DNA of 64,000 nucleotides from the NCBI RefSeq assembly GCF_000196875.2, contig NC_014532.2, positions 2,418,001 through 2,482,000 of the forward strand, given 5' to 3'. Below, in pieces: positions 34,933 to 52,017 of the stretch (its first letter is position 1; each line of letters begins with the position of its first letter). Origin of the DNA: Halomonas elongata DSM 2581 (GTDB taxonomy: Bacteria; Pseudomonadota; Gammaproteobacteria; Pseudomonadales; Halomonadaceae). The notes beneath the pieces were generated by a model. That model made no database searches and was not told where the DNA came from. It was given only the letters and a program-made list of their open reading frames with translations. The translations under genes and the position numbers were made by a program.

Positions 34933-36324
34933 ATGCCCCAGGATTTGACACGCGACCTGCAGGACCTGATTGAACGCGGCCGTGACCGCCAGCTACGCCT
35001 GGCGGTCACCGGTCTGTCACGCGCCGGCAAGACCGCCTTTCTCACCTCGCTGGTCGACCAGCTTCGACACGCCGGCCTCGAGGCTCGGCTCGACCTGCTC
35101 GGCGCCGCCCGCGAGCAGCGCCTGCTCGGTGCCCAGCGCGTGGCCCAGCAGGATCTCGGCGTACCGCGCTTCCCCTACGACCAGGCCATGCAGGCCCTCG
35201 GCGCGGACCCGCCGAGCTGGCCGACGCCGACCCGCGGCATCAGCGAATTGCGCCTGAAGATCCGCTACCGCCGCGCCCATGCCAACTGGTGGCGCGGCAA
35301 CACCGCCGAACTGACGCTCGATCTTTTCGATTATCCCGGCGAATGGCTGCTCGACCTGCCGCTGCTCGATCATGACTTCGCCAGTTGGAGTCGCACGCAA
35401 TGCGAGGGCAACGGCCCCGCCCGACGCGCCCTGTTCGCCGACTGGCATGCCGCCATCGCGGAGCTCGACCCGGCCAGCGAGGTCGATGAAGCACGTCTCG
35501 CCGAACTGGCCGAACACTACGCCGAGGGGCTGCGTGCCGCCCGCGAGGCCGGCTTCTCCGATCTGCAGCCCGGCCGCTTCCTGCTGCCCGGCGACCTGGC
35601 CGGGGCGCCGGTGCTGCAGTTCTTCCCCCTGCCCGGCCTCGACGACTGGTCGGCCGAGGCCCTGGCAGCATTGCCCGACACCAGCCTCTACGCCACCCTG
35701 GCGCGGCGCTTCGCCTACTACCAGCAACGCATCGTGCGGCCCTTCTATCGGGATCATTTCCGACGCTTCGACCGCCAGATCGTGCTCGTCGATGTCCTCG
35801 GGGCGCTCAATGCCGGCCCGGAACGCTTCGAGGACCTGTCGCGCGCCCTGTCCCGCCTGATGCAGAGCTTCGACTACGGCCAGCGCAGTCTGCTGTCACG
35901 ATTGTTCACCCCGCGCATCGACCGTCTGGCCATTGCCGCCACCAAGGCCGACCACGTCACTCCCGAGCAGCATGTGCGCCTGGTGGCATTGCTCGAGGCC
36001 CTGCTGGTCGAGCCACTCAAGGATCTGCGCTTCGCCAACGTGCCCGTCAAGGCGCTCTCCCTGGCCTCGGTACGCGCCACCGAGGTACGCGAGGTTACCC
36101 AGCACGGACGGACGACACCGGCCCTGCGCGGCACCGACCTGAACGGCGAGAGCGTGCTGACCTTCCCCGGCGAGGTGCCGACGCGACTGCCCGATGCCGA
36201 TTTCTGGGCGCGCCAGGGTTTCGACTTCACAGCCTTTCGCCCCCTGCCACGCGAGCCCGGCCCCCTGCCCCACATTCGCATGGATGCCGCCCTCGACTGG
36301 CTGATCGGAGACAAGTTGACATGA
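34933..36324 (+). CDS. ycjX: YcjX-family P-loop GTPase-like protein
   Basis: YcjX is a DUF463 P-loop protein linked to the phage-shock response in E. coli. The 463-residue product has Walker A GLSRAGKT at residues 27-34, LDLFDYPGEWLLDLPLL as the switch/Walker B region, FPLPG and RPFYRDHFRRFDRQIVLVDVLGALNAG, and a KADHV motif that would read the guanine base. It overlaps ycjF by ATGA at 36321. The E. coli partners pspABC are absent here, so the pair must be regulated otherwise. Confidence 0.92.
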   Translation: MPQDLTRDLQDLIERGRDRQLRLAVTGLSRAGKTAFLTSLVDQLRHAGLEARLDLLGAAREQRLLGAQRVAQQDLGVPRFPYDQAMQALGADPPSWPTPTRGISELRLKIRYRRAHANWWRGNTAELTLDLFDYPGEWLLDLPLLDHDFASWSRTQCEGNGPARRALFADWHAAIAELDPASEVDEARLAELAEHYAEGLRAAREAGFSDLQPGRFLLPGDLAGAPVLQFFPLPGLDDWSAEALAALPDTSLYATLARRFAYYQQRIVRPFYRDHFRRFDRQIVLVDVLGALNAGPERFEDLSRALSRLMQSFDYGQRSLLSRLFTPRIDRLAIAATKADHVTPEQHVRLVALLEALLVEPLKDLRFANVPVKALSLASVRATEVREVTQHGRTTPALRGTDLNGESVLTFPGEVPTRLPDADFWARQGFDFTAFRPLPREPGPLPHIRMDAALDWLIGDKLT

Positions 36325-37376
36325 ACGACGCCCCACGCCAGGACACGCCGGATCCCCGGCCGGGCCAGCGATTCGATTCCCGGGCGCCCTCTCGCGAGCC
36401 GGACCCCGCCCCGGCCCATCGCTTCGAAAGCGACCTGTCGAGCCGCGCCCTGGCCCCGAGCGACGAGTCGGATGCCCCTGGACAGCCGGACCCGGCGGTA
36501 CACCTCGGCCGCCCTCGCAAACGACGCTGGGGACTGCTCGGCGTGCTCACCGGCGCACTGGGCCTGGGAACCGCCGAATTCATCACCGGCCTGCCCGCCA
36601 GCCTGGCCGGCGGCGACTGGCTGACCGCCGGCTGGCAATTGCTCGGCCTCGCCGCCGTGGGGCTCGGCAGCCTGGCGATTCTGCGCGAGCTCTGGCGACT
36701 GCGCCGACTCGGCCGGCACGATCGCCTGCGCGAGGCGCTGGCACGGCTGCCCGAGTGCTCACCCGAACAGGCCATGACCTTGGCTCGTCACCTCAAGACC
36801 CAGCTCGACCTGCATGACGACCACCCTCACTGGCAGGCCTTTCTCGCCGCGCGCGAGCCGCATCACGACGGTCAGGATCTCGCCCCGCTGCTGGCCCATC
36901 ATCTGCTTGCCCCGCGCGACCGCGAGGCACGGCGGCTGATATCGCGCATGAGCGGCGAGACCGCCGTGATGGTGGCGGTCAGTCCGCTGACCCTGGTCGA
37001 CATGGGCCTGGTCGCCTGGCGCCACCTGGCCATGATCGACCGCTTGTGCCGACTCTACGGGCTGGAGCTCGGCTACGCCGCCCGCATTAGCCTGCTGCGC
37101 GACGTCTTTCGCCAGATGGCCTTCGCCGGCGCCACGGAACTGGCCAGCGACGCCAGCATGCAGATGCTCTCGCTGGATCTCGCCGGCCGACTTTCCACCC
37201 GGGCCGCCCAGGGCCTGGGCGTCGGCCTGCTGGGCGCGCGACTCGGGCTGCGCACCCAGCGCCTGACCCGGCCGCTGGCCTTCGACGAGGCCGAACGGCC
37301 CCGCCTCAACGACCTGCGCCGCGATCTCTGGCAGCAACTGCGCCGCCTCGAGAACAAGGACAAGCGTCCGTCCTGA
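36321..37376 (+). CDS. ycjF: YcjF-family inner-membrane protein (DUF697)
   Basis: The 351-residue product (E. coli YcjF 353) has a charged, Pro-rich amino end of about 70 residues, two membrane segments (WGLLGVLTGALGLGTAEFI and LLGLAAVGLGSLAIL, about residues 71-120), and a DUF697-type helical region with GETAVMVAVSPLTLVDMGLV and MAFAGATELASDAS. It is translationally coupled to ycjX, the invariant partner in gammaproteobacteria. Molecular function is not established. Confidence 0.92.
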   Translation: MNDAPRQDTPDPRPGQRFDSRAPSREPDPAPAHRFESDLSSRALAPSDESDAPGQPDPAVHLGRPRKRRWGLLGVLTGALGLGTAEFITGLPASLAGGDWLTAGWQLLGLAAVGLGSLAILRELWRLRRLGRHDRLREALARLPECSPEQAMTLARHLKTQLDLHDDHPHWQAFLAAREPHHDGQDLAPLLAHHLLAPRDREARRLISRMSGETAVMVAVSPLTLVDMGLVAWRHLAMIDRLCRLYGLELGYAARISLLRDVFRQMAFAGATELASDASMQMLSLDLAGRLSTRAAQGLGVGLLGARLGLRTQRLTRPLAFDEAERPRLNDLRRDLWQQLRRLENKDKRPS

Positions 37377-37397: not shown

Positions 37398-38636
37398 TCA
37401 CCCGCCCATCTGCTGGCGGCCCAGGGCATCGAGATCCGCGGGCCGGGCACGACCGGTGAAGTCGACCTCGAAGTCGTCCGGCGCGAAATCGGGCGGCGTG
37501 CGTCCTTCGACGAAGGCCTGCCATTGTCCCGGCAGGTAGGCCGCATTCTTGTCGCACCAGGGCGCGGCCCCGATGTACATGACGTTGCTGTCGTACTCGC
37601 CGTCATGCTCGGGATCAACGGCGTGCACCACATCGCAGTGCCACCAGATGGTGTCGCCGGGCTCGAGATCGGGAATCGGCGTCAGCGCTTCCAGCAACGG
37701 CGCGTGCCAGTGGGGATCGATCGACAGCGCGCGACCGGGTCGGGCACCGCACAGGTCATCCTCCGGCACATCATCCTGCAATGCCCGCAACAGCAGATAG
37801 CTCATCACATTGGCGATGGGAATCAGGTTCAGGGTTCCGGCGCCCGAGCGTTGCGGTGTCAGCGCCGTCCAGCCCTGGAAGGTGCGGAACATCGAACATA
37901 CCGCCGGCGAGGCGATCTCGCGCACCTGGGTACGCCCCAGGGCGGCGAAGGGATCGAAGCGCTCGGGCACCCCGCGAAAGACATGGCGATAGACGTAGCG
38001 GAAGCCGTCGTCGAGCCAGCGCTCCACGGAGCCACCATCGACATGAGGCGACAGCCCCAGGCTTCCCGAACCCGGCGGTCGGCGACGCAGCCGGTCGGCA
38101 TAGCTGGCTAGATGGCCGGGATCGAACTCTTCGCCGGCATCCCACAGGCGATTGAGAAACACCTGGACGTCACACAGCCGCGCGTCCTGGCGCGCCTGTA
38201 CCTGGGGCGATGACCAGTAGACGCCGTAGATCTGCGGCTTGCCCTGTTCGAGCTCGCCGAAATAGGGATCATCGGCGGCATTCGCCAGGCGCTGCATGAA
38301 GCGATTGCGCTCGAGGTAGTCACCGATCTCGGCATTCCAGTGTCGCGCGCGCTCGGCCGGGAAGACACCGGCGACGGCACAGGCACCGCGCTGGCGAATG
38401 CGCTGTCGATCGGCCTCGGAGAGTCGGCCGGCGATGATGTCATCGGCCGCGAAGCGGGGAATCGGATGCTCGCCGGCGGCGCGTTCCGCCCTGATGCGTT
38501 CGACCTGCGTCAGGATGTCGTCCCGGGCGCGCTCGAAGGCGCCACGGTAATCCGGCAGGTCGCGTTTCAGGCGCTGTTTGGTGTCACGAATCGTCGCGCG
38601 GAGCGTATCGGCAGAATCGGGGCATTCTCGTGTCAT
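37398..38636 (-). CDS. DUF1479 protein, YbiU-like, putative Fe(II)/2-oxoglutarate oxygenase fold
   Basis: The 412-residue product matches the YbiU/DUF1479 family in length and in [57 protein letters not shown] and [24 protein letters not shown] and WHCDVVHAV look like iron ligands of a cupin-type oxygenase (His-x-Asp, distal His); that is inference, because the family reaction is unknown. ATG 38636 has GAGAGGGA upstream and the ABC ATPase stops only 13 bases before it, so it belongs to the sugar importer operon. Its carboxyl end converges on ycjF. Confidence 0.87.
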
Positions 38637-38649
38637 GGCGGCTTCCCTC

Positions 38650-39771
38650 TCAGGCAAGGCGAGCTTCGGTGTCGGCATCGAACAGCACGGCGCGTCGCAT
38701 GTCGACACGCAGGCCGAGCCGTTCACCCGATGCGACCCGGCAGTCCGGGCCCACCCGGGCGGTGATCTCCGTATCGCCGAGCGGCAAGCGCAGCAGGATA
38801 TCGGCACCGGTGGGCTCGACCACACTGACCCTGGCCGAAAGCGGCGTGCCCTCGGCCCGATCGCCCAGTCGGGTGTCTTCCTCGGCGAAGTGTTCGGGGC
38901 GCAGGCCGAGCGTCACTGTCTGCCCGACACGTTCGGCCAGCACCGGCGTCTCACGGGAATCCGGCCACGGCAGCGTCAACGCCGCCTCGCCTTGAGTGGC
39001 GACATACAGTCGATAGGCGCCGGGCCCGCCCGCCAGTTCCGCCTCGATGAAATTCATCGACGGCGAGCCCATGAAACCCGCCACATACTTGTCGACCGGA
39101 TCGTTGTAGACCTCGTCCGGCGTGCCCAACTGCAGGATTCGGCCATCGCGCATCACGGCGATGCTGTCGGCCAGGGTCATGGCCTCGATCTGGTCGTGGG
39201 TCACGTAGACGATGGTGGTGCCCAGCCGCTGGTGGAGCTTCTTGATCTCGGTGCGCATCTCGACGCGCAGCTTGGCGTCCAGGTTGGAGAGCGGCTCGTC
39301 GAACAGGTAGATCTGCGGCTCCCGGGCCAGGGCACGCCCCATGGCCACGCGCTGACGCTGTCCGCCGGAGAGCTGCGACGGCTTGCGATTAAGCAGATGC
39401 GAGATCTGCAGCAGGTCGGCGACGCGCTCCACCGCCGCATCCCGCTCGGCCTTCGGCACCTTGCGCATCTCCAGACCGAAGGCGATATTGCCGTGCACCG
39501 TCATGCTCGGATAGAGCGCATAGGACTGGAAGACCATGGCGATGTCGCGCTCGGCGGGGGTTCGCCAGGTGATGTCGTCGCCGCCCACCTTGATGCGGCC
39601 CGAAGTGACCGGCTCCAGGCCGGCGATGGCATTCATCAGGGTCGACTTGCCGCACCCCGAGGGGCCCACCAGGATCAGGAACTCCCCGGAGTCGATGGCC
39701 AGGCTGACCTCCTCGAGCACCCGGGTCGTACCGAAATCCTTGCAGACATTGTCGATTTCCAAAGCTGACAT
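38650..39771 (-). CDS. Sugar ABC transporter ATPase, MalK/UgpC/GtsD type
   Basis: The 373-residue product has Walker [13 protein letters not shown] (about residues 37-48), the Q-loop [12 protein letters not shown], signature [16 protein letters not shown], Walker [13 protein letters not shown] and the switch His in [16 protein letters not shown] carboxyl TOBE/MalK-like regulatory domain runs from about 240, as in all CUT1 sugar importers. It is the fourth gene of the cassette after the binding protein and two permeases, and would power uptake of a sugar, most likely glucose by resemblance to the Pseudomonas gts system. Confidence 0.93.
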
Positions 39772-39790: not shown

Positions 39791-40669
39791 TTATCCTTTT
39801 ACCGAACCGGCGGTGAGCCCCCTCACGAAATACTTTCCTGCCAGCACATAGACCACCAGGGTCGGCAGCGCGGCGATCATGGCGGCGGCCATGTCGACGT
39901 TGTATTCCTTCACGCCGGTGGAGGTGTTGACCAGGTTGTTGAGCGCCACCGTCACCGGCTGGGTGTCGTGCCCGGAAAACGCCACGCCGAACAGGAAGTC
40001 GTTCCAGATCTGGGTGAACTGCCAGATCACCGAGACCACGATGATCGGCTTGGAGACCGGCAGCAGGATTCGCCAGAAGATACGGAAGAAGCCCGCGCCG
40101 TCGAGCTTGGCCGCCGAAACCAGCTCGTCGGGGATCGAGACGTAGAAGTTGCGGAAGAACAGCGTGGTGAAGGCGATACCGAATACCACATGCACGAATA
40201 TCAGGCCGGCCCGCGAACTCGACAGCCCCAGCCAGCCCAGCGTCTGGGCCATGGGCAGCAGGATGACCTGAAACGGTATGAAGCAGCCGAACAGCATCAT
40301 CGCGAACACCAGCTCGGCCCCCTTGAAACGCCACTTGGTCAGGGCGTAGCCGTTCAGGGCACCGATCAGGGTGGCGATGATCACAGCGGGAATCACGATG
40401 GCGAAGGAGTTCCAGAAGTAACCGCTCACCCCATCGCAGCGCATGCCGGTGCAGGCCGATCCCCAGGCCTTCAGCCAGGGGGCCAGCGTCGGGTTGTCGG
40501 GCAGGGCCAGCAGGCTGCCGGCGCCGATCTCGTCGAGGGGCTTGATGGAGGTCAGCACCATTACCGCCAGCGGCAGCAGGTACCAGAGCGCCGCCACGAG
40601 CAGCGTCAGGTGGAGCATCAGGCGCCAGACACGCGCCGCCGGGGTCCGGGATCGAATCACGTTATCCAT
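39791..40669 (-). CDS. Sugar ABC transporter permease, MalG/GtsC type
   Basis: The 292-residue product has six membrane segments and the EAA loop SAAKLDGAGFFRIFWRILLPVSKP that contacts the ATPase. The end FVRGLTAGSVKG is the classical MalG-type closing motif. A periplasmic stretch with the CTGMRCDGVSGYFWNSF segment carries two cysteines. ATG 40669 overlaps the stop of the preceding permease by 8 bases (ATGGATAA), so the two are translated together. Confidence 0.93.
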   Translation of the reverse strand: MDNVIRSRTPAARVWRLMLHLTLLVAALWYLLPLAVMVLTSIKPLDEIGAGSLLALPDNPTLAPWLKAWGSACTGMRCDGVSGYFWNSFAIVIPAVIIATLIGALNGYALTKWRFKGAELVFAMMLFGCFIPFQVILLPMAQTLGWLGLSSSRAGLIFVHVVFGIAFTTLFFRNFYVSIPDELVSAAKLDGAGFFRIFWRILLPVSKPIIVVSVIWQFTQIWNDFLFGVAFSGHDTQPVTVALNNLVNTSTGVKEYNVDMAAAMIAALPTLVVYVLAGKYFVRGLTAGSVKG

Positions 40670-41603
40670 GTCGACGGCTCCGCAATTCCGCATAGAGATA
40701 AGGCACCAGGATCGCCAGCACGCCACCCAGCATCAGGATGGCACTGGCCGAGCCCATGCCGATCTGGGCGCGGGTGAAGGCATGGGCGTACATGAAGGTC
40801 GCCGGCAGATCCGAGGAATAGCCCGGACCACCGCCGGTCAGCGCCACCACCAGGTCGAAGCTCTTGATGGCGATGTGCGAGAGGATCATCACCGCGCTGA
40901 ACACCACGGGACGCAGGCAGGGCATCACCACCCGCCAGTAGATGCGAGGCAGGCTGGCCCCATCGAGCTGGGCGGCCTTGAGGATGCTGTCGTCGATGCC
41001 GCGCAGCCCGGCCAGAAACAGCGCCATGACGAAGCCCGAGGCCTGCCACACCGCCGCGATGACCAGGGTATAGACGGCCATGTCCGGGTCCACCAGCCAG
41101 TCGAAGGTGAAGGACTCGAATCCCCAGCCACGCACCATGGCCTGGATGCCGAGACCGGGATTGAGCAGCCATTTCCACACCACCCCGGTGACGATGAACG
41201 ACAGTGCCATGGGGTACAGATAGAGAGTACGCAGCATGCCCTCGCGACGGATGCGCTGATCGAGCAGGATCGCCAGCCCCGCCCCCAGTACCAGGCACAG
41301 AGCGACGAAGAGCACACCGAACACGCCGAGGTTGGTGGCCGCCACCCACCAGCGTTCATTGTTCATCAGTCGCGCATACTGGGCGAAGCCGACGAAGTCG
41401 TAGCTCGGCAACATGCGCGAATCGGTCAGGGAGAGGACGAAGGTCCACAGCATGAAGCCATAGACGAAGCACAGCGAGATCACCACGGACGGCGCCAGCA
41501 CCAGTTTGGGCAACCAGGCCTGGAGATGACCGGCCACGCTGGGGCGCGAGATCGTCGCGCCGCCGGGCCGCGCCGCCTCCCCGGGAGTCGAAACGGATTT
41601 CAT
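40662..41603 (-). CDS. Sugar ABC transporter permease, MalF/GtsB type
   Basis: The 313-residue product has six membrane segments (for example PSVVISLCFVYGFMLWTFVLSL) and the EAA loop KAAQLDGASLPRIYWRVVMPCLRPV. Opening is basic and cytoplasmic (VSTPGEAARPGGATISR). Its place between the binding-protein gene and the second permease, and the LTGGGPGYSSDLPATFMY segment, fit CUT1 permeases of the GtsB type. The gap from the binding-protein gene is 59 bases. Confidence 0.93.
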   Translation of the reverse strand: MKSVSTPGEAARPGGATISRPSVAGHLQAWLPKLVLAPSVVISLCFVYGFMLWTFVLSLTDSRMLPSYDFVGFAQYARLMNNERWWVAATNLGVFGVLFVALCLVLGAGLAILLDQRIRREGMLRTLYLYPMALSFIVTGVVWKWLLNPGLGIQAMVRGWGFESFTFDWLVDPDMAVYTLVIAAVWQASGFVMALFLAGLRGIDDSILKAAQLDGASLPRIYWRVVMPCLRPVVFSAVMILSHIAIKSFDLVVALTGGGPGYSSDLPATFMYAHAFTRAQIGMGSASAILMLGGVLAILVPYLYAELRSRRHG

Positions 41604-41662: not shown

Positions 41663-42940
41663 TCACATGGCCAGCTTGGCGGCCTGCCCCAGCCGCTCGG
41701 CGGCTTGCTCGGCGGTCATGTCGCTCGAGTTGAAGTAGTTGGTGATGATGTCGAAGAAGGCACCCTGCACATCGCTGCGCATGGCCATCCGGTGCGCCAT
41801 GCTGGGCACCAGGGTGTCGGCGTCACGCGCCGCCTGGAAGTCTTCCATGGAGCGCTTGGCGCAACTGTCGAAGCCGCTCATGTCGAGATCGGGACGCGCC
41901 GGGATCGAGCCCTTGATCTGGTTGAAGGTCTTCTGGAAATCCGGCTCCAGGATCAGGCGAGCCAGGGTCTGCTGGGCCTGCTGTGCGGATTCGTCGCCGA
42001 GCTGGAACATGGCGAAACTGTCGATGTTGAAGGTGAAGGCATCCTCGGTGCCCGGCACCGGCGCACAGACATAATCCTCGCCGGCCTGCATCTCGGCGGC
42101 GGTGAATTCGCCCTTGGCCCAGTCGCCCATGATCTGCATGGCGGCTTCGCCATCGATCACCATGCCGGTGGCCTGGTTCCAGTCGCGCCCCGGCATGCCC
42201 TCGTCCATCAGCCCGCGCAGGCGCTTGAAGGTGGTCAACGCCTCGATCATGGTGTCGCTCTGCAGCGCCTGCTCATCGAGATCGACGAAGGCACGACGAT
42301 AGAAGTCGCTGCCGCCGAGACTCAGTACCACGCTCTCGAAGGTGGTGGCATCCTGCCAGGGCTGCCCGCCGTGGGCCAGCGGCACATATCCCGCCTCACG
42401 CAGGGTCTCGCCGGCGGCGAACAGCTCGTCCCAGGTGGTCGGCATCTCGACGCCAGCGTCATCGAGCACCTCGGGATTGGCCCACAGCCAGTTGACGCGG
42501 TGCACGTTCACCGGCACCGCCACGTAATGGCCGTCGTGCCGCATCATGTCGGACACTACCTCGGGCAACAGCTCGTCCCAGTTGCCTTCTTCGGCCACAT
42601 CGTCGAGGTTGCCGAGCAGGCCCAACTCGCCCCACTCCTGGATCTCCGGCCCGTTGATCTGCGCCGCCGCCGGCGGGTTGCCGGACATGGCGCGCGACTT
42701 GAGTACCGTCATGGCGCTGTCGCCGGCACCACCGGCCACGGCGAAGTCCTTCCATTCATGGCCCTCCGCCTCGAGCAGGTCGCGCAATTCGCCCACCGCC
42801 TTGGCCTCCCCGCCGGAGGTCCACCAGTGCAGGACTTCCACCTCACCGGCCTGGGACTGGCCGGCGGCGCCCAGGGTACCGGCCACGGCCAGTCCCAGCA
42901 GGGTGTGGCGGAGTGGTGAGAATCGCATCAATGCGCGCAT
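41663..42940 (-). CDS. Sugar ABC transporter substrate-binding protein, GtsA-like
   Basis: The 425-residue precursor has a Sec signal peptide (LMRFSPLRHTLLGLAVAGTL, cut after QSQA near residue 31). The mature protein starts GEVEVLHWWTSGGEAKAV, the typical beginning of glucose/mannose-binding proteins of the Pseudomonas GtsA and Thermus type. Others of this class bind glucose with several Trp side chains; QINGPEIQEWGELG and the NRVNW-like VNVHRVNWLWANPE fit. Two cysteines may be bridged. Start is ATG 42940 with AGGAGG upstream; MRFS at 42928 is an alternative. Periplasmic. Confidence 0.92.
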   Translation of the reverse strand: MRALMRFSPLRHTLLGLAVAGTLGAAGQSQAGEVEVLHWWTSGGEAKAVGELRDLLEAEGHEWKDFAVAGGAGDSAMTVLKSRAMSGNPPAAAQINGPEIQEWGELGLLGNLDDVAEEGNWDELLPEVVSDMMRHDGHYVAVPVNVHRVNWLWANPEVLDDAGVEMPTTWDELFAAGETLREAGYVPLAHGGQPWQDATTFESVVLSLGGSDFYRRAFVDLDEQALQSDTMIEALTTFKRLRGLMDEGMPGRDWNQATGMVIDGEAAMQIMGDWAKGEFTAAEMQAGEDYVCAPVPGTEDAFTFNIDSFAMFQLGDESAQQAQQTLARLILEPDFQKTFNQIKGSIPARPDLDMSGFDSCAKRSMEDFQAARDADTLVPSMAHRMAMRSDVQGAFFDIITNYFNSSDMTAEQAAERLGQAAKLAM

Positions 42941-43198: not shown

Positions 43199-44383
43199 CT
43201 AGCGGTATGGCCTCGCCTTCAATGCGGCCATGGCGTCCTGACAGGCCCCCATGGTGTGATAATCGACCTTGCCCGCCGGACTCTTGACGTCGGAATAGCG
43301 GTGATTGTCGGCATCGAGCAGGCGATACCAGGCGCCGTGACGATGATCGATCATGTGCTGCCAGCTGAAGTCCCAGATGCGTCGATACCAGCGCCAGTAG
43401 ATATCGCGGCCGGTCCGCTCGCCCAGCATGGCCGCCGCGGCGAAACTTTCGGCCTGCACCCAGAAGTACTTGTCGGCGTCGCTGATCCGCCCGTCCAGAT
43501 CGAGCCCGTAGACCAGGCCCCCCGTCTGCGGATGCCAGCCGGCCTCCACGCTGCTCGAGAACAGGCGCTCGGCGGTGGGCAACAGCCAGTCCTCGGGCCG
43601 GTATCGATCGAGCATGACCAGCAACTTGGCCCATTCGGTCTGGTGCCCCACCTGATAGCCCCAGGGGCGGAACAGGTGGCTCGGGTCATCACGGTTGTAA
43701 TCCAGGTCTCGACGCCATTGGGCATCGTAGTGCTCCCAGATCCAGCCATGTTCATGGTCGCGATTGGCGTCGATGATGGCCCGGGCGACGGTCATCGCCT
43801 GGGTCAGGAAATCCGCGTCTCCGGTGGCCTCGTAAGCCGAGATCAGCGCCTCGCAGGCATGCATGTTGGCGTTCTGGCCCCGATAGCCGGACACATGCCA
43901 CTGGCGGTCGGCCTCGTCGGCGAAACGCCCGTGCTGTGGTTCCCAGAACCGGCGCTGCAGCATGGCGTGAGTCGCGTAGAGGCCCTCCCGCGCCCCGGGC
44001 ACCTCGGTCTTGAGCGCTTCGGCATAGGCCAGCAGCACGAAGGCCAGCCCATAGCAGTGGTTGGTGTCGTCCTCCACCTCGCCATCCGACAGGGTCCAGG
44101 CGTAGCCTTGATAGGCCGTCTGGAAATGGGCCTGTTCCAGGTAGTCGAGCCCGTGCCGTGCCCAGTCGCGATACTCCGACTCACCGCTGTGCCGCGCGAA
44201 GCGGGCATAAATCACCACGAAGCGGGCGCTCGACACCAGATGGCGATGCTGTCGGTCGAGGATGGCGCCATCGTCACGCAGGTAATGAAAGAAGCCACCC
44301 TGCGGGTCGATGGCACGCGGATGATAGAACGCCATGGTCGTGCGGACATGGCCATCGAGAAAAGCGGGATCGAAGATGTTCAC
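43199..44383 (-). CDS. AGE-family sugar epimerase/isomerase
   Basis: The 394-residue product has the alpha6/alpha6-barrel pattern of N-acylglucosamine 2-epimerases and aldose-ketose isomerases: HPRAIDPQGGFFHYLRDDG, HLVSSARFVVIYARFA, GYRGQNANMHACEALISAYEAT, GYQVGHQTEWAKLLVMLDRY and YHTMGACQDAMAA. The conserved His residues that act as general acid/base appear present. The sequence fits mannose isomerase or YihS-type enzymes (mannose-fructose, or glucose-mannose exchange) better than GlcNAc epimerase, because its neighbours are a hexose importer and a GltR-like two-component system. The start is GTG 44383 with GGAGGG 7 bases upstream. Confidence 0.88.
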   Translation of the reverse strand: MNIFDPAFLDGHVRTTMAFYHPRAIDPQGGFFHYLRDDGAILDRQHRHLVSSARFVVIYARFARHSGESEYRDWARHGLDYLEQAHFQTAYQGYAWTLSDGEVEDDTNHCYGLAFVLLAYAEALKTEVPGAREGLYATHAMLQRRFWEPQHGRFADEADRQWHVSGYRGQNANMHACEALISAYEATGDADFLTQAMTVARAIIDANRDHEHGWIWEHYDAQWRRDLDYNRDDPSHLFRPWGYQVGHQTEWAKLLVMLDRYRPEDWLLPTAERLFSSSVEAGWHPQTGGLVYGLDLDGRISDADKYFWVQAESFAAAAMLGERTGRDIYWRWYRRIWDFSWQHMIDHRHGAWYRLLDADNHRYSDVKSPAGKVDYHTMGACQDAMAALKARPYR

Positions 44384-44518
44384 GATATTCCCTCCGAATG
44401 GTTTCGAGACTCTGGCTTGGCGGCGCGTCCTTCCCGCCACATGAATGTATGTTGCCGAATCCGCAATCGATCTGCCTGGCGCGGCTTCCCCAAGTGCCAG
44501 GCGCTGCCTGAAAAATGG

Positions 44519-46009
44519 CTAGAGCTCTGCACTCCCGGAATCCTGGCGGGGCAACATCAAGCTCACCACCAGCCCGCCTTCGGGATGGTTGTCCAGCGCC
44601 AGCCGGCCGCCGTGGGCCTGGATGATGTGCCGGGCGATGCCCAGCCCCAGGCCGCTGCCGCCGGTGTGACGGCTGCGCGACGGTTCGAGCCGCACGAAGG
44701 GCGAGAAGACCCGTTCGCGCTGTGCCGGCTCGATGCCGGGGCCATGATCGCGGATCGCCATCTGCAGGCTGTCCGGCGTATCCTCGAGCCGCACCTCGGC
44801 GCGCCGGCCATAGAAGACGGCATTCTCCAGCAGGTTGGTCAGGCAACGCTTGAAGGCCAGCGGCTTGACGGCCACAGGCGCGGCCTCTCCCATCACCCGC
44901 ACCTCGCCGCCCTGCAATGCCATCTCGCCGGCCAGCTCATCGCACAGTGCGCGCGGCTCGATGATCTCGACCTCTTCGTGCATGTCGAGGCCCTTGACCG
45001 AATCCAGCGCGCCCCGGACCAGTTGATCCAGTTCGTCCAGGGAAGCGCAGAAACGCTCGCGCAGCATCGGGTCGTCGAGCATTTCGGCACGCAGGCGCAG
45101 GCGAGTGATGGGCGTCTTCAGATCGTGGGAAATCGCCGAGAAGAGCCGCTCGCGCTCCTCCACCTGATGCTGGATGCGCCGCTGCATGCGATTGAAGGCG
45201 ATGGCGGTCGCCGCCACCTCGCGGGGCCCGCCTTCGCTGAGTGGCGGACTGTCGAGATCGTCGCCCAGCCGACGAGCGGCCCGCGACAGCCGTGCCAGGG
45301 TTCGAGTGGCGCTGCGGATACCGAGCCACGACAGGCCGATGACCGTCAGCAGCACCATCAAAGCCACGAACAACCGGTCCCCGGACAGCCAGCCGCCGTC
45401 ATGGAAGACATCCGACACCGGCAGCAGCGTAGCGACATACAGCCACTGGCCGCGCTCCAGCGGCAGCTGTACCACCAGAATCGGCTGCGACAGCGGCGCA
45501 CTCATCAGGCTGTGCTGCCCCCAGCGCGGCGGCATGTCGCGCAGCAACACCTCGTTGTTGAGCAAGCGCAGGGTATCGGGCCGGGTAAAGGTCACCTCGG
45601 CGTCCGTCACGCCGATTTCATCGCGCAGCACATCGTGAAAGTTGTCGATCACCAGCGCCTTCGCCGACCCTTCGCCGATATCGTCCACCTCGATGCGATG
45701 GTCGTTGACGCTGACGAAGAATCGCGTGCCGCCCATGTCGCGCAGTTGGTCGAGCACGATGTGGCGATAGTCATACGGCAGGGAGCGAAAGAAGCGCACC
45801 GTGGAGGCAACGCTGTAGGCAATATTACTCGACAGTTCGTCGAGCCGGGCGAGCTGGCCATCACGTGCCTGGGCCGTCCAGATGGAATAGCTGGCGAGCT
45901 GCGCGCCCAGCACCCCGACCACCATGATCAACAGGAAGCGGCCACGCAGGGAGCTCGGTAACCCTCGCGCCAACGAACGACGCCAGCGTCGCCAGGTGGC
46001 GCGCCTCAC
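44519..46009 (-). CDS. Sensor histidine kinase of a sugar-related two-component system, GtrS-like
   Basis: The 496-residue membrane kinase has two membrane segments (about residues 24-46 and 212-231) enclosing a periplasmic sensor domain of about 165 residues, then a HAMP-type linker, the phosphoacceptor His295 in FSAISHDLKTPITRLRL, N box LTNLLENAVFYG, and G boxes DHGPGIEP and GSGLGLGIARHI. The GTG start overlaps the regulator stop (GTGA). In Pseudomonas the GtrS kinase senses 2-ketogluconate or glucose-derived signals and controls gts genes; the same arrangement here supports sugar sensing. Confidence 0.9.
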   Translation of the reverse strand: MRRATWRRWRRSLARGLPSSLRGRFLLIMVVGVLGAQLASYSIWTAQARDGQLARLDELSSNIAYSVASTVRFFRSLPYDYRHIVLDQLRDMGGTRFFVSVNDHRIEVDDIGEGSAKALVIDNFHDVLRDEIGVTDAEVTFTRPDTLRLLNNEVLLRDMPPRWGQHSLMSAPLSQPILVVQLPLERGQWLYVATLLPVSDVFHDGGWLSGDRLFVALMVLLTVIGLSWLGIRSATRTLARLSRAARRLGDDLDSPPLSEGGPREVAATAIAFNRMQRRIQHQVEERERLFSAISHDLKTPITRLRLRAEMLDDPMLRERFCASLDELDQLVRGALDSVKGLDMHEEVEIIEPRALCDELAGEMALQGGEVRVMGEAAPVAVKPLAFKRCLTNLLENAVFYGRRAEVRLEDTPDSLQMAIRDHGPGIEPAQRERVFSPFVRLEPSRSRHTGGSGLGLGIARHIIQAHGGRLALDNHPEGGLVVSLMLPRQDSGSAEL

Positions 46010-46731
46010 GCGATCACATCCACCCGGGCCGCCAGCACATAGCCCGTGCCGCGCACCGTGCGAATCAGCTGCGAATGCTGGGCGTCTTCGCCCAGCCGTT
46101 GGCGCAACCGGCAGACGTGCACATCGATGGAACGATCCAGCGGCGGCGCCGGACGCCCACGGGTCAGGTCGAACAGGGCCTCCCGCGAGAGCACCTGTTC
46201 GGCATGCTCGAGGAAGACCTGCAGCAGCGAGAAATCAGCCCCCGACAGGGCACTGCGCATACCGCGCTCGTCGATCAGCTCACGCGTCACGCGGTCCAGG
46301 CGCCAGTCGCCGAAGGCCACGATCCGGGCCATCCCCGAACCGGCCGAGTCGCCGCGGGGCCGGCAGCGGCGCAATACCGCCTTGACCCGCGCCAGCAACT
46401 CGCGGGGATTGAAAGGCTTGCCCAGATAGTCGTCGGCACCGAGCTCCAGCCCGAGGATCCGATCGGTCTCGTCGGGGCTGGCGGTCAACATGATGATCGG
46501 CACCTCGCTGTCCCGGCGTACCTCGCGGCAGATGGCAAACCCATCGTCGCCGGGCAGCATCAGATCGACGACCAACAGGTCGGGGCGCTCGGTGGCCAGC
46601 AAGGCACGCAACGCCTCCGCGTCCTCGGCCATCAGGGCACGGTAACCGTGGCGCGTCAGGTAATCGGCGAGCAGGTCACGGATCTCCGGGTCATCGTCGA
46701 CCACGACCAGGGTGGCGGCAGGCGTCGTCAT
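46006..46731 (-). CDS. OmpR-family response regulator, GltR-like
   Basis: The 241-residue product has a receiver domain with acidic pocket DDD (residues 12-14), phospho-acceptor Asp56 in LLVVDLMLPGDDG and Lys in YLGKPFNPREL, followed by a winged-helix domain (about 135-238; LLQVFLEHAEQVLSREALFD, and SIDVHVCRLRQRLGED as recognition helix). ATG 46731 is chosen; an in-frame GTG lies 12 bases earlier. It is translationally coupled to the kinase gene and heads the epimerase and ABC importer run, which it probably controls. Confidence 0.92.
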   Translation of the reverse strand: MTTPAATLVVVDDDPEIRDLLADYLTRHGYRALMAEDAEALRALLATERPDLLVVDLMLPGDDGFAICREVRRDSEVPIIMLTASPDETDRILGLELGADDYLGKPFNPRELLARVKAVLRRCRPRGDSAGSGMARIVAFGDWRLDRVTRELIDERGMRSALSGADFSLLQVFLEHAEQVLSREALFDLTRGRPAPPLDRSIDVHVCRLRQRLGEDAQHSQLIRTVRGTGYVLAARVDVIA

Positions 46732-46867
46732 CGGCACTATCACCGGCAGCGGTGGCGCTCGATAAGCGCCGTGTCGAACATCGTCATGCCCGATACTCTA
46801 GGCCCCTACCCGCACGCTGGCGATACCACCAAGGTGGCAACAGTGGACAACGCCGGCCCCGGAGCTC

Positions 46868-47665
46868 CTAGAGCGCGAAGCGCTCGATCAGGCGTTGCGC
46901 CACGGCGGCCTGGTCGTGGGAACCGATGCGCAACGCGCCGGGCACAGCTTCCATCAGGGCCGGGTGGGCATTGCCCATCACATGGGCCTCGCCGGCCAGG
47001 TCGAGCATTTCGATGTCGTTGCGATTGTCGCCGAAGGCCAGGCAGCGCTCGGCCGGGATCTCCAGTTGCGCCAGCAAGGCGGTCAGCGCCGTGCCCTTGT
47101 TGACCCCGCCGGCCATGATCTCCAGCGAGTTGTCCATGGAGTAGGTGATGTGCAGTTCCCTCTCCGCGCGACGCCGTGCCTGTTGCTCCAGTTCGCCGAG
47201 CGCGGCGGGCTCACCGATGTAGAGCACCTTGCCCACGCCCTCGCCATCCAGGCCGTCGAGTTCGGCCACCCGATAGCCGAAACCGGTATGCGTATGCAAG
47301 GCCAGCAACTCAGGCGCCGGCGCATCGATCAGCCATTCATCGTCATGGTAGAGGTTGAGTCGCACCGCCTCGGGGCGCGGCAAGCGGATCAGCTCGCGCG
47401 CCAGCCCTGCCGGCAGGTAGCGCGCCTCGATCAGCCGGCCATCCGGTGAATGGGTATAAGCCCCGTTGGTGCTGATGATGTGGGCCTCGATGCCGAGATG
47501 ATCGCGAAACGCCAGGATGTCGCGATAATGTCGACCGGAGGCCAGCACGATGTGATGCCCCTGCCCCGCCAGGGCGCGCAGGGTATCGACCGTCACATCC
47601 GCCAGGGCGTGATCGGCGCCGAGCAGGGTTCCGTCGAGATCCGTGACGATCAGGTGAGCCGTCAT
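46868..47665 (-). CDS. Cof-type HAD-IIB sugar-phosphate phosphatase
   Basis: The 265-residue product has HAD motif I VTDLDGTLLGADHAL (nucleophile Asp and acid/base Asp), motif II as VLASGRHYRD, and motif IV GDNRNDIEMLDLAGEAHVMGNAHP, with the C2B cap between residues about 85 and 195. Such enzymes dephosphorylate sugar phosphates or FMN. It follows nagE after 120 bases on the same strand, so it may relieve accumulation of amino-sugar phosphates; that is inference. An equivalent of E. coli NagD-like function, though of a different HAD class. Confidence 0.9.
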   Translation of the reverse strand: MTAHLIVTDLDGTLLGADHALADVTVDTLRALAGQGHHIVLASGRHYRDILAFRDHLGIEAHIISTNGAYTHSPDGRLIEARYLPAGLARELIRLPRPEAVRLNLYHDDEWLIDAPAPELLALHTHTGFGYRVAELDGLDGEGVGKVLYIGEPAALGELEQQARRRAERELHITYSMDNSLEIMAGGVNKGTALTALLAQLEIPAERCLAFGDNRNDIEMLDLAGEAHVMGNAHPALMEAVPGALRIGSHDQAAVAQRLIERFAL

Positions 47666-47785
47666 GCGTTGTCCCTCACACGATGAATGAGACGCCAGTC
47701 TAACAGCCCGTCCGGGGCGATGCCCCGAACGGGATGACCAGCATTTGCCGTGCGGCCATCGTGCTAGCCGACCAACGATCGACGC

Positions 47786-49480
47786 TCAGCCGCGCGCCGC
47801 CAGGGAAGCGGCGATGTCAGAGGCCTGCGGGCCGACCACCAGATGCCAGGTGCGCTCGCCGACGGCCATGGAACCGAGACAGCCCAGCGTCTTCAGTGCT
47901 GCCGTATCGAGGGATGCCTCGTCATGCAGCTCGACGCGCAGGCGAGTCCCGGCCCGGGCGGCAAGGTCGCGAAGGTTGTCGCGTCCGCCGAGCGCGGCCA
48001 GCCAGGCGGCGACCTGATCGTCGGACAGCGATGCCTCGGCGGTTTCTTCCACCGGCTGATGTGGCGTGTCGTCCTCGGATACCGGCGGCTCGACACCGGC
48101 AGCGGCCACGGCGGCACGAATCTCGTCGGCCACGCCATCGGCGATGGGCCCCAGCACGACCTGCAGACCGCCACCGCCGAGGCGCATCACACCGCGCGAT
48201 CCCAGCGACTTGAGGGCAGGCTCGTCGATGGCATCGGCATCGGCCAGCACCAGACGCAGCCTCGTGGTGCAGGCACCGACGCTGCGCAGGTTGGCTGCCC
48301 CGCCGAGCGCGGCAACGAAGGCAGGTCCCCGCTCGCTGGCCTGCCCCTCCGCCGGGCGGGACATGGCGGTCTCCTCGTCACGGCCCGGCGTGGGCAGGTC
48401 GAAGCGCTGGATCGCCCAGCGAAAGACGCCGTAGTAGATCACGAACATGGCCAGGCCGACCGGCAACATCAGCCAGCCATTGGTGGAAAGGCCATAGGAA
48501 AGGGCGTAGTCGAAGGCGCCGGCCGAGAAGGTGAAGCCGAGCTTCACGTCGAGCAGCTGCATCAGTGCCATGGACAGGCCGGTCATCACCGCATGGAACA
48601 CATAGAGCAGCGGCGCCAGGAACATGAAGGTGAACTCGATGGGCTCAGTCACCCCGGTCAGGAAGGCGGTCAGCGCCAGCGACATCAGCAGGCCGCCCAC
48701 CTGGGCACGGCGTGCCTTGGGCGCGGCGTGATACATGGCCAGCGCCGCGGCCGGCAGGCCGAACATCATCACCGGGAAGAAGCCGGCCATGAAGCCTCCG
48801 GCACCGGGATCGCCGGCGAAGAAGCGATTCAGATCGCCGGTGGCGCCATCGAAGCTGCCGAACACGAACCACACGAAGCTGTTGAGCACATGGTGCAGCC
48901 CGGTGACGATCAGCAGGCGATTGAGCGCCCCGTAGACGAACTTGCCGAGCGCACCGGCCTCTATCAGCCAATGCCCCAGACCATCGATGCCCGCCTGGAT
49001 CGCCGGCCAGCCCCAGCCGAAGACGATGCCGAGCAGCACCGCCGCCAGGCCCGTGGCGATCGGCACGAAACGCCGCCCGCCGAAGAAGGCCAGGTATTCC
49101 GGCAACTGGATGGCCCGGTAGCGGTTGTATATCAACCCTGCCACGGAGCCGATGATCACCCCGGCCAGTACCCCCATGTTGATGTCGGGGTTGATGGTGT
49201 GCAGCACCGCGTCCAGCACCAGGTAGCCGACCACCCCGGCCAGCCCCGCCGCACCGTTGCTGTCATCGGCGAAACCGACCGCCAGGCCGATGGCGAAGAT
49301 CAGCGCCAGATGGTCGAAGATCGACTGGCCGGCGGCAGCCACGAAACCGATATCCAGCAGGTCGGGCTGGCCCAGTCGCAACAGCAGGCCGGCTACGGGC
49401 AGCACCGCGATGGGCAGCATCAAGGAACGTCCGAGCAATTGCAGCCCGGCCATGAGGCGGGAGCCTAGTTCGCGAGTCAT
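47786..49480 (-). CDS. nagE: N-acetylglucosamine PTS permease, IIC with two IIB domains
   Basis: NagE imports GlcNAc while phosphorylating it to GlcNAc-6-P. The 564-residue product starts with the glucose-family IIC domain (about residues 5-365, including HTINPDINMGVLAGVIIGSV and TGVTEPIEFTFMF). A IIB domain follows (about 386-465) with the phosphorylated Cys404 in GACTTRLRL. A second IIB-like copy (about 492-564) keeps ALGGRDNLRDL and TRLRV but has ARAGTRLRV where the Cys should be (Ala510), so it should be inactive. The IIA function is on NagF. The start overlaps the nagF stop by ATGA. Pseudomonas NagE (570 residues in P. aeruginosa, from memory) may have the same layout. Confidence 0.95.
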   Translation of the reverse strand: MTRELGSRLMAGLQLLGRSLMLPIAVLPVAGLLLRLGQPDLLDIGFVAAAGQSIFDHLALIFAIGLAVGFADDSNGAAGLAGVVGYLVLDAVLHTINPDINMGVLAGVIIGSVAGLIYNRYRAIQLPEYLAFFGGRRFVPIATGLAAVLLGIVFGWGWPAIQAGIDGLGHWLIEAGALGKFVYGALNRLLIVTGLHHVLNSFVWFVFGSFDGATGDLNRFFAGDPGAGGFMAGFFPVMMFGLPAAALAMYHAAPKARRAQVGGLLMSLALTAFLTGVTEPIEFTFMFLAPLLYVFHAVMTGLSMALMQLLDVKLGFTFSAGAFDYALSYGLSTNGWLMLPVGLAMFVIYYGVFRWAIQRFDLPTPGRDEETAMSRPAEGQASERGPAFVAALGGAANLRSVGACTTRLRLVLADADAIDEPALKSLGSRGVMRLGGGGLQVVLGPIADGVADEIRAAVAAAGVEPPVSEDDTPHQPVEETAEASLSDDQVAAWLAALGGRDNLRDLAARAGTRLRVELHDEASLDTAALKTLGCLGSMAVGERTWHLVVGPQASDIAASLAARG

Positions 49481-52017
49481 GATGGGATCCTCTCGGGAGT
49501 TGTTGTTGTGGCGTCGGACACGGATTCATGGATCTCGGCGAGACGCCGACGCACGCTTGCGGCATCGGGCATCGCCAGCAGATCCGGCAGTTCGCGGGCC
49601 AGCGAAGCGGCATCGAGTCGACGAATCGACGCCTTGATGGCAGCCACCCGGGCCGGCTCGACGGACAGCTCATCGACGCCCATCGCCACCAGCAGGGAGG
49701 CGGCCAGCGGATCACCGGCCGCCGCACCGCACACCCCCACCGGGCAGCGACCGGCGGCGCCCTCGACGGTGGCCTGGATCAGGCGCAGCACGCCGGGATG
49801 CAGGACATCGGCGCGGGCTGCCAGGTGCGGGTCCTCGCGATCCATGGCCAGGGCATACTGGGTCAGGTCGTTGGTGCCGATCGACAGGAAGTCGGCCTGT
49901 TCGGCCAGGTTTGCCGCGCACAGGGCGGCGCTGGGCACCTCGACCATGGCGCCGAGACGCGGCCGCTCCGTGAGGCCACGTTCCACGGCAACGGCCTCTA
50001 GCCGCTCGCGCACCCAGGCCAGTTCTCCGACCTCGCTGACCATCGGCACCATGATGCGCAGGGCATCCAGCGGCACGACGCCGAGCAAGGCGTGCAATTG
50101 GGTATCGAGCAGTGCCGGCTGGTCATGCCACAGCCTCACCCCGCGCACGCCGAGCGCCGGATTGGGCACCTCGGGCAGGCGCAGATAGGGAAGCTGCTTG
50201 TCGGCACCGATATCCAGGGTACGAATGATCACCGGCTTGCCGCCGAGCGCCGTCAGGCTGGTCTGGTACTCGTGGCACTGCTCCGCCTCGTCGGGCGCGG
50301 TATCGCGGCCCAGGAACAGGAACTCACTGCGCATCAGGCCGACGCCGTCGGCACCGGATTCGGCCGCCAGCCGCGCTTCGCTGCTGTCGCCGATGTTCGC
50401 CGCCACTTCGATCTCGCGACCGTCGCGCGTGACGGCCGGTTCGAAGGCCTCGGCACGCTCGACCTCCCGGCGCTCGGCATCGCGGCGCAGGGCCTCGCGC
50501 ACCGCTGCCAGGCGCGCCTCGTCGGGCGCGGGCTCGAGACGCCCGGCATGGGCGTCGAGCACTGCATGCTCTCCGCTCACGTCCTCGAGTGCCTCGCCCA
50601 TGGCCACCAGGCAGGGAATACCACGCGCCCGGGCCAGGATCGCCACGTGCGACGTCGTGCCGCCGGCCTTCAGGCACAACCCGGCAGGACCGCGCTCGGC
50701 GAGGTCGACGAACTGCGAGGGAGAGAGATCATCGGCCACCAGGATGGCCCCTTCGGGAACATCGGGCAGCGGGGCCGCACCGGCCTCGGCGAACTCGGCC
50801 ATGACATGACGCTGCAGGTCGCGCAGATCGGCCACGCGTCCCGCCAGCAAGGCATTGCCGGTGGCTCGCAGTTGTTCGGCCTCGTCATCCAGCGCCTCGC
50901 GCCAGGCCTGACCGGCACTGCGACCGGCCTCGATGCGAGCCGTGGCCGACTCGAGCAACCCCGGATCGTCCAGCCAGGCCAGGTGCGCCTCGAAGATATC
51001 CGCTTCGGCGCGCTGCCCCTGCCGTTCGGCCTGCTCGCGCGCGTTTTCCAGGGAACGCCCGACCCGCTCCAGGGCGGCCCGCAGATCCTCGCGTTCGACC
51101 GCCTCGCCACGTCCGTCGTAAGGCACCGCCGGCAGCGGCAGGCTCAGCGTCACCAGCGGGCCGATCGCCAGGCCCGGACTGGCGACGAGGCCGGCGAACT
51201 CACCTTCGGCCACGGAGGCCGGCATCGTCGCTTCCTGCTGCGGCTCGGCACCTTCCGGCGTGGTCAGCAGCTCGGCGATGGCCGCCAATACGGCCTGGGT
51301 ATCCTCGCCCCGGGCGTGCAGGACCACCTCGCTGCCTTCGGCCAGGCCGAGGTTCATCAGGGCACTCACGCTGTCGCCACGCGCCTCGGCGTCGCCATGT
51401 CCGAGTCGCACCTCGGCGTCGTGCCGCTTCACGATGGCGCGCACCCGGGCTGCCGGTCGGGCGTGCAAGCCGGCCTCGAGTGCCAGCGTCACGCGGCGTT
51501 CCTGCCAGGGCCCTGTGCGCTCGGTCGTTGCCGTGTCGGACGCCGTGGCGGGCGTCAGGCTCATCAGCGCGGCGCCACGTTCGACATACCCGCCCGTGGC
51601 GTTCGCCTCGAGACGCAGACGCCAGCCGGCGTCATCGGTTACCACCAGCGGCGTGATCAGTGACCTGGCCCGCTCGGCCAGCAGCTCGGGATCGAAACAG
51701 CACAGTGGCTCGCCGGTCTTCACCCGCTGCCCCACTGCGACGTTCAATTCGATGCCCTGGCCCTGAAGTTCGACGGTATCCAGTCCCAGGTGAATCAATA
51801 CCTCGACGCCCTGCTCGGTCTTCAGCGTCAGGGCGTGCCGGGTCTTGGCGCACTGCACCACCTCGCCGTCGCAAGGCGCGTGGAGCACGGGCTCCAGTGG
51901 ATCCAGGGCGATGCCCTCGCCCAGGGTTCCGCCGGCGAAGACCGGGTCGGGAACATCGGACAAGAGCGTCACGATGCCAGTGGCCGGGGCCACCAGGGTC
52001 AGTTTGGAGGAAGACAT
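49477..52017 (-). CDS. nagF: Fused PTS protein EIIA-HPr-EI for GlcNAc (NagF type)
   Basis: NagF relays phosphate from PEP to NagE. The 846-residue product joins a glucose-type IIA domain (about 5-150; phospho-His76 in EVLIHLGLDTV), an HPr domain (about 172-255; His185 in GLHARPAARV) and Enzyme I (about 274-830; phospho-His457 in GGTTSHVAILARARG, PEP-binding motif GADGVGLMRSEFLFLGRD, and GTNDLTQYALAMDRE). A full phosphorelay is therefore encoded in one chain and needs no other PTS gene. The architecture and gene order match nagF of Pseudomonas. Gap to nagB2 is 39 bases. Confidence 0.96.
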   Translation of the reverse strand: MSSSKLTLVAPATGIVTLLSDVPDPVFAGGTLGEGIALDPLEPVLHAPCDGEVVQCAKTRHALTLKTEQGVEVLIHLGLDTVELQGQGIELNVAVGQRVKTGEPLCCFDPELLAERARSLITPLVVTDDAGWRLRLEANATGGYVERGAALMSLTPATASDTATTERTGPWQERRVTLALEAGLHARPAARVRAIVKRHDAEVRLGHGDAEARGDSVSALMNLGLAEGSEVVLHARGEDTQAVLAAIAELLTTPEGAEPQQEATMPASVAEGEFAGLVASPGLAIGPLVTLSLPLPAVPYDGRGEAVEREDLRAALERVGRSLENAREQAERQGQRAEADIFEAHLAWLDDPGLLESATARIEAGRSAGQAWREALDDEAEQLRATGNALLAGRVADLRDLQRHVMAEFAEAGAAPLPDVPEGAILVADDLSPSQFVDLAERGPAGLCLKAGGTTSHVAILARARGIPCLVAMGEALEDVSGEHAVLDAHAGRLEPAPDEARLAAVREALRRDAERREVERAEAFEPAVTRDGREIEVAANIGDSSEARLAAESGADGVGLMRSEFLFLGRDTAPDEAEQCHEYQTSLTALGGKPVIIRTLDIGADKQLPYLRLPEVPNPALGVRGVRLWHDQPALLDTQLHALLGVVPLDALRIMVPMVSEVGELAWVRERLEAVAVERGLTERPRLGAMVEVPSAALCAANLAEQADFLSIGTNDLTQYALAMDREDPHLAARADVLHPGVLRLIQATVEGAAGRCPVGVCGAAAGDPLAASLLVAMGVDELSVEPARVAAIKASIRRLDAASLARELPDLLAMPDAASVRRRLAEIHESVSDATTTTPERIPS

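Follow-up and report, generated by a model that had tools for sequence, protein, structure and literature searches.

A DUF1479 gene at the end of a glucose-type importer operon in Halomonas elongata, and its possible link to 1,5-anhydro sugars

The DUF1479 gene, its operon and its predicted fold

What does a protein of the DUF1479 family do at the end of a sugar importer operon? The question is raised by a minus-strand gene (37398..38636) in the window, by which we mean the whole 64,000-nucleotide stretch of the Halomonas elongata DSM 2581 genome that was analysed. Read directly, its frame runs from an ATG at 38636 to a stop codon at 37398-37400, encodes 412 amino acids and contains zero internal stops. 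By the Pfam gathering score the protein is a full member of PF07350 (441 bits vs a cut-off of 27; residues 11-411 matched to model positions 2-407 of 408), the DUF1479 entry, since renamed Gig2-like. A 13-nt spacer (38637..38649, minus strand) follows the stop codon of the preceding ABC ATPase gene, and within it a GAGG, read directly 9 nt before the ATG, is a possible ribosome-binding site. A longer, GTG-started frame from 38825 overlaps the ATPase gene and was set aside as an unneeded start. An earlier, sequence-only reading of this DNA had the coordinates of the gene and its distance of 13 bases from the ATPase gene right, and left its strand unstated.

The genes ahead of it, all on the minus strand, have the layout of a CUT1 glucose-type importer by their domain matches, with a solute-binding protein (SBP), two permeases and a MalK-like ATPase in one operon. 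The CUT1-type ATPase gene (38650..39771) matches ABC_tran, OB_MalK and TOBE_2, and the UgpC subfamily model at cut-off (432 bits). Both permeases match BPD_transp_1 (PF00528); the MalG/GlcU-like permease 2 (39791..40672, with the ATG start chosen at 40672) reaches 152 bits against GlcU and the MalF/GlcT-like permease 1 (40662..41603) 114 bits against GlcT, each below the cut-off. The SBP (41663..42940; SBP_bac_1, PF01547) has 5dvf as its nearest solved relative in a PDB sequence search (517 bits), the sugar-transporter binding protein of the Pseudomonas-type glucose ABC importer. Further upstream are an AGE-family gene (43199..44440; PF07221, 365 bits) that probably encodes a D-mannose isomerase, a sensor histidine kinase (44519..46009; HATPase_c, HisKA, HAMP) and a response regulator (46006..46743; Response_reg, Trans_reg_C). 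The AGE-family protein is nearest to 3gt5 (505 bits) and to 5x32 (445 bits), a D-mannose isomerase with a relative that lacks GlcNAc activity (PMC7762179). Because it matches 5x32 this well and reaches only 215.7 bits against the D-mannose isomerase model NF051846 (cut-off 600), we liken it to D-mannose isomerases and do not claim membership.

Two further gene groups flank the operon. On the plus strand, and convergent to it, lies a YcjX-YcjF pair (34933..37376; DUF463, DUF697; synteny). Directly upstream, on the minus strand, is a GlcNAc PTS operon (46868-55059) that encodes a HAD-IIB phosphatase, a NagE-type PTS EIICB (632 bits, above the cut-off of 553), an EIIA-HPr-EI fusion, a SIS-domain protein, a NagA-like amidohydrolase and a GntR/UTRA regulator.

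An AlphaFold2 model of the DUF1479 protein, built from 35 sequences, had a mean pLDDT of 87.6. Six of the 50 matches listed by VIA-align were DUF1479 entries (Z 39-58), and the other 44 (Z 16-18) were alpha-ketoglutarate oxygenases by title or by enzyme name. AsqJ, FtmOx1, PrhA and TlxI appeared among these listed matches at Z 16-18, over about 230-260 residues and at 11-16% identity. As modelled, the protein has the double-stranded beta-helix fold of Fe(II)/2-oxoglutarate oxygenases. The sequence-only reading had called this fold probable and had named the lack of a metal site in a predicted structure as the point against it; the model and its oxygenase matches bear the fold out. The motifs HVDGGS and WHCDVVHAV that it had picked out were both found in the window sequence. 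H198, D200, H333, D335 and H338 showed no variation in either of two alignments (20 and 35 sequences), and the His/Asp motifs are retained in fungal GIG2. The predicted HxD...H ligands are H198-x-D200 with either H333 or H338 as the distal histidine.

Several members of the family have been solved: Yersinia pestis YPO2976 (4rgk, 7twc, 7twe), E. coli YbiU (2dbi, 2dbn), a Salmonella protein (2csg) and Candida albicans GIG2 (6akz). The window protein is 61-62% identical to 4rgk and 7twe and about 42-45% identical to YbiU and 2csg, and 6akz matches its model at Z 39.4 with about 29% identity. In fold and sequence alike it is typical of this known family. The title of 7twe (about 62% identical) includes "Bound to 2...", which we presume to mean 2-oxoglutarate. 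We infer that the window protein uses a metal and 2-oxoglutarate, and it is quite likely an Fe/2-oxoglutarate oxygenase of a small sugar-like compound. The family had been described as having no known reaction, and we found none in print either, although several PDB entries exist, including that of fungal GIG2. No assigned function for DUF1479, YbiU, GIG2 or YPO2976 was found in the openly licensed literature; a subscription paper could exist. A BLASTp-based guess that ybiU makes dTMP (PMC3423039) rests on an E-value of 1.6 and was rejected. A search of viral contigs returned no DUF1479 relatives.

Occurrence in Halomonas and neighbourhoods across the family

We found DUF1479 carriers in 7 of 90 genus genomes, in 4 of 194 order genomes above the family cut-off (2 more gave weak matches below it) and in 15 of 397 phylum genomes. 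The window-type SBP is present in 43 of the 90 genus genomes. In every genus carrier (7/7; the window and L016-L021), DUF1479 is placed after a histidine kinase-AGE-SBP-permease-permease-ATPase series, which agrees with its earlier description as the last member of a sugar importer operon. We read 10 loci from the 36 SBP-bearing genus genomes that lack DUF1479. All 10 retain the histidine kinase, the SBP, both permeases, the ATPase and YcjF-YcjX, and 9 of them retain AGE; the YcjX-YcjF pair marks the operon end with and without DUF1479. In the closest locus without the gene (L150), about 35 bp lie between the ATPase and YcjF genes. A tblastn search of the gaps (E ≤ 10) for DUF1479 remnants gave only short matches with E 0.83 or worse. 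DUF1479 is hence an optional last cistron, and the same locus occurs without it in the genomes read. The sensor and AGE genes occur with or without DUF1479, so their presence alone is no clue to what it acts on.

In one Halomonas genome a 324-aa open reading frame (L152:5173-6147) occupies the DUF1479 slot behind the ATPase gene. We considered whether another known gene fills the slot, and neither this frame nor the other gap frames scanned had a Pfam match.

For the family-wide comparison, we compiled 108 non-redundant DUF1479 loci and scored neighbours within 8 kb, after dropping short copies (L001-L014) and duplicates (L037-L039, L079, L118, L121, L125, L126). A window-type SBP or permease was near DUF1479 at 21 of the 108 loci, and a complete importer at 9, in a set that leans to window-like members because it was drawn from the best 80 of 580 hits of a genome-contig scan plus plasmid, genus, order and phylum searches. 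The chance of an SBP within 8 kb is about 0.4% per locus (by arithmetic, for one SBP copy in a 4.06 Mb genome). On a 69-row tree the importer association changed state 6 times, and the link between DUF1479 and the importer thus arose several times independently. Its arrangement differs between groups. In Halomonas, DUF1479 follows the ATPase gene on the same strand; in Modicisalibacter (L072) it has an AraC gene of its own and lies on the opposite strand; at L023 it is divergent from the importer; at L024 it stands ahead of the SBP; and in Burkholderiaceae the order is DUF1479-SBP-aldo-keto reductase. The sequence-only reading had taken the importer, the AGE epimerase and the sensor system together as clues to the substrate, and had asked for repeated association with sugar genes. 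The CUT1 importer part of that argument stands, as a recurrent and independent link, and the epimerase and sensor parts are not borne out as specific evidence.

Within 8 kb of DUF1479 we found AGE at 8 of the 108 loci, YbiW at 9, YbiV at 14, YciT at 8, an aldo-keto reductase resembling L-galactose dehydrogenase at 9 (Burkholderiaceae), 1,5-anhydrofructose reductase at 2 and an aldose 1-epimerase resembling the L023 one at 1. Glucokinase was within 8 kb at 37 loci (Enterobacterales and one other locus). We set this proximity in Enterobacterales aside as evidence, since the ypdAB-glk gene order, present in E. coli, is probably ancestral. None of the scored sugar neighbours was present at 37 of the 108 loci.

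We also noted neighbours of other kinds. In Burkholderia and some Paraburkholderia, DUF1479 lies near a citrate synthase gene and an adjoining conserved block (L026, L093, L097, L099, L101, L102, L109, L111, L114, L115). On E. coli and Klebsiella plasmids (L030, L031), ybiU is adjoined by genes for a LacI regulator, an MFS transporter and a GH31 glycosidase. Two further members adjoin CUT2-type importer genes (L083, L098; Peripla_BP_4, BPD_transp_2), with a ROK protein and an aldo-keto reductase also at L083.

1,5-Anhydro sugar context, a proposed function and its rivals

In Enterobacteriaceae, including six genomes of the phylum sample, the family member is encoded in ybiY-ybiW-ybiV-ybiU, often with fsaA nearby. 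YbiW and PflD cleave 1,5-anhydroglucitol-6-phosphate (1,5-AG6P) and 1,5-anhydromannitol-6-phosphate, YbiW being a 1,5-AG6P lyase (PMC12441222), and YciT binds upstream of ybiUVWY and fsaA (PMC8464067). At Pantoea plasmid loci, DUF1479 lies between YbiV and YciT, without YbiW.

A second association comes from the importer loci. At L023 the gene order is LacI-DUF1479-Dabb-aldose 1-epimerase, with SBP-F-G-ATPase-reductase-AGE-glucokinase running divergently. The best PDB matches of this reductase are 1,5-anhydro-D-fructose reductases (305 and 297 bits; next 77), and a reductase near DUF1479 at L100 matches the same solved enzymes (399 and 395 bits; next 128). In a 72-row SBP tree, in which long branches were flagged, a 20-row clade (SH-aLRT 95) takes in the DUF1479-linked SBPs of two outgroup genomes (L023, L024). 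This clade holds 14 of the 15 reductase-linked SBPs of the tree and 4 SBPs with surroundings not read; L024 has no reductase near DUF1479 despite the position of its SBP. The Halomonas SBP, an ordinary glucose-type protein, falls outside the clade and groups with gammaproteobacterial copies that are unlinked. The Burkholderiaceae DUF1479-linked SBPs likewise adjoin unlinked copies of their own kind.

The reductase is not a general companion of DUF1479. We detected no anhydrofructose reductase in the 90 genus genomes (E ≤ 1e-40), and none of the 15 DUF1479 carriers in the 397 phylum genomes was among the 18 reductase carriers, so we rejected co-occurrence as a rule. At alphaproteobacterial reductase loci (L131-L148), the reductase gene is regularly followed by CoA transferase, enoyl-CoA hydratase and aldehyde dehydrogenase genes and then by a glucose-type importer; these three enzymes suggest that the reductase may serve a route other than that through mannose there, and its role may be wider. 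They were also the conserved neighbours scanned when we looked for an oxygenase as an alternative hydroxylase in those clusters, a candidate that was rejected. At a gammaproteobacterial locus (L149) an AGE gene (461 bits to that of the window) directly follows the reductase, and DUF1479 is absent from the fetched stretch.

By similarity, C1 of a free aldose is the site of action of several DUF1479 neighbours: the AGE isomerase (nearest 3gt5 and 5x32), a mutarotase and an aldo-keto reductase resembling aldose dehydrogenases. For the Burkholderiaceae aldo-keto reductase, the nearest enzymes are L-galactose dehydrogenases, and these oxidise C1 of a free aldose. A further hint comes from expression: the Yersinia pseudotuberculosis orthologue (YPO2976/YPTB2699) was 4.448-fold up in human plasma vs LB (P < 0.001), and the aminotransferase gene beside YPTB2699 was likewise up, 2.15-fold (PMC2631605). 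1,5-Anhydroglucitol ranks among the major polyols in humans, according to a 2025 review that calls the C1-hydroxylase of 1,5-anhydrohexitols, needed for aerobic anhydrofructose use, "still unidentified" (PMC12441222). The same review states that an oxidative 1,5-anhydroglucitol pathway "has not been described" and describes a rhizobial hydroxylase as cytochrome-P450-like (PMC12441222).

Because relatives of the window gene adjoin 1,5-anhydro sugar genes, DUF1479 may be the missing aerobic enzyme. We tentatively propose, as a serious possibility short of an even chance, that it is an Fe(II)/2-oxoglutarate C1-hydroxylase that turns an importer-supplied 1,5-anhydrohexitol into a free aldose. We infer which class of compound it takes, where it attacks and what it yields. 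1,5-Anhydroglucitol or 1,5-anhydromannitol would enter through the hexose importer encoded upstream. In the cytosol, DUF1479 would remove a hydrogen at the C1 methylene beside the ring oxygen and then place a hydroxyl group there. The resulting hemiacetal would be free glucose or mannose, and 2-oxoglutarate would give CO2 and succinate. Mannose could then be converted to fructose by the upstream AGE-family isomerase, and glucose could pass to glucokinase. In Halomonas, with no reductase detected in the 90 genomes, the importer would bring in the anhydrohexitol as such. DUF1479 would in this way do with oxygen what the glycyl-radical lyases YbiW and PflD do anaerobically. Of the earlier suggestion (oxidation of a sugar or sugar-derived compound, or action on the imported substrate), the importer link is upheld, and our proposal sharpens the suggestion to C1-hydroxylation of a 1,5-anhydrohexitol.

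A broader version would extend this role to the whole family, so that the E. coli operon pairs an anaerobic YbiW with an aerobic YbiU for one compound and Halomonas has added a single gene to a glucose importer. We regard it as plausible but less likely than not. Against the proposal in either form stand the missing reductase in the genus, its lack of overlap with DUF1479 in the phylum sample and the ordinary glucose type of the Halomonas SBP. The YbiU context may not transfer to Halomonas, given 44% identity and a long branch in the tree. The plasma induction of YPTB2699 could stem from glucose or iron. The fungal cousin GIG2 is tied to GlcNAc, a third of the loci (37/108) have no scored sugar neighbour, and the described rhizobial hydroxylase is P450-like.

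The proposed enzyme could instead be an Fe/2-oxoglutarate oxygenase for another importer-supplied sugar derivative, such as an O-alkylated sugar or a glycoside, in which hydroxylation beside an ether oxygen frees a hexose. This is somewhat unlikely. It draws on the same fold and importer evidence and on the same chemistry, attack on a C-H next to an ether oxygen, and it would accommodate the CUT2-type importer genes at L083 and L098 and the GH31 and MFS genes beside ybiU at L030 and L031. It leaves the YbiW and anhydrofructose reductase neighbours unexplained.

We think it unlikely that the gene has no functional tie to the operon it ends, being a passenger with a substrate unconnected to the importer. 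The scarcity of the gene in the genus, a gain or loss that leaves the rest of the locus unchanged, and the loci that lack scored sugar neighbours are what a passenger would produce; the recurrence of the importer association in differing orders and orientations, with its 6 changes on the tree, argues against one. Metabolite repair, in which DUF1479 and YbiV would clear 1,5-AG6P, a hexokinase-inhibiting side product, by dephosphorylation and then oxidation, is a shade more improbable. YbiV is the neighbour at 14 of the 108 loci, the Pantoea plasmid loci combine YbiV, DUF1479 and YciT without YbiW, and 1,5-AG6P is toxic in neutrophils (PMC12441222). However, the Halomonas and Burkholderiaceae genes are tied to importers rather than to phosphatases, which suggests uptake from outside and argues against repair.

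Action on N-acetylglucosamine or its product is very unlikely. The name of fungal GIG2 (GlcNAc inducible gene 2) suggests it, 6akz being GIG2, and the GlcNAc PTS operon with its NagE-type EIICB lies upstream in the window. Two Halomonas genomes that lack DUF1479 (L160, L162) have that operon at the same position, so we read the linkage as genus synteny and rejected it as a link to GlcNAc. In addition, the AGE gene resembles mannose isomerases, and nag genes were not seen among the labelled bacterial neighbours, where nag was not a scored label. Least probable of all, to the point of being far-fetched, is a sulfosugar dioxygenase acting like SqoD of the sulfo-ASDO pathway (Fe/2-oxoglutarate dioxygenase, importer and aldo-keto reductase, leading to glucose; PMC12890257): the Burkholderiaceae set of DUF1479, SBP and aldo-keto reductase is similar, but that reductase is nearest to L-galactose dehydrogenase with no sulfoquinovose-pathway reductase named among the matches listed, the listed PDB matches of the window SBP are glucose and other sugar binders with none named for sulfoquinovose, and the AGE protein scores 445 bits to 5x32 vs 158 to the sulfoquinovose isomerase 7ag4.

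Significance and closest known systems

The orphan family DUF1479, which has solved structures and occurs in E. coli, Yersinia and Candida, becomes testable through the context described here. What is new is that three kinds of context converge on one substrate class for such a family. If the proposal of 1,5-anhydrohexitol hydroxylation is true, DUF1479 supplies the C1-hydroxylase that the 2025 review calls unidentified (PMC12441222). It would also provide the aerobic 1,5-anhydroglucitol enzyme that, according to that review, is needed for gut removal of the compound in two neutropenias (PMC12441222).

The closest known proteins are the solved DUF1479 (Gig2-like) members, of which the window protein is a full-length homologue with the same fold and His/Asp motifs. 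The setting differs: the window gene closes an operon for a CUT1 glucose-type importer, that for E. coli YbiU belongs to ybiYWVU, and YPO2976-type genes lie by ypdAB and glk. The phytanoyl-CoA-dioxygenase-like Fe(II)/2-oxoglutarate oxygenases (AsqJ, FtmOx1, PrhA, TlxI) have the fold in common with DUF1479, which is more than 100 residues longer. The known enzymes of this type act on natural products.

Among systems that may be related by substrate, YbiW and PflD share the proposed substrate class with DUF1479 and are oxygen-sensitive radical enzymes that act on 6-phosphates (PMC12441222). The Sinorhizobium 1,5-anhydrofructose route shares the proposed class as well, and its hydroxylase is described as P450-like (PMC12441222). 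SqoD of the sulfo-ASDO pathway is alike in outline, an Fe/2-oxoglutarate oxygenase that takes in a hexose analogue and gives out glucose, but attacks another bond; we liken it by its described pathway (PMC12890257). The importer itself most resembles the Pseudomonas-type glucose ABC importer, both in its SBP (517 bits to 5dvf) and in its one-operon layout, and differs from it by the extra oxygenase gene at the operon end in 7 of the 43 SBP-bearing genus genomes.
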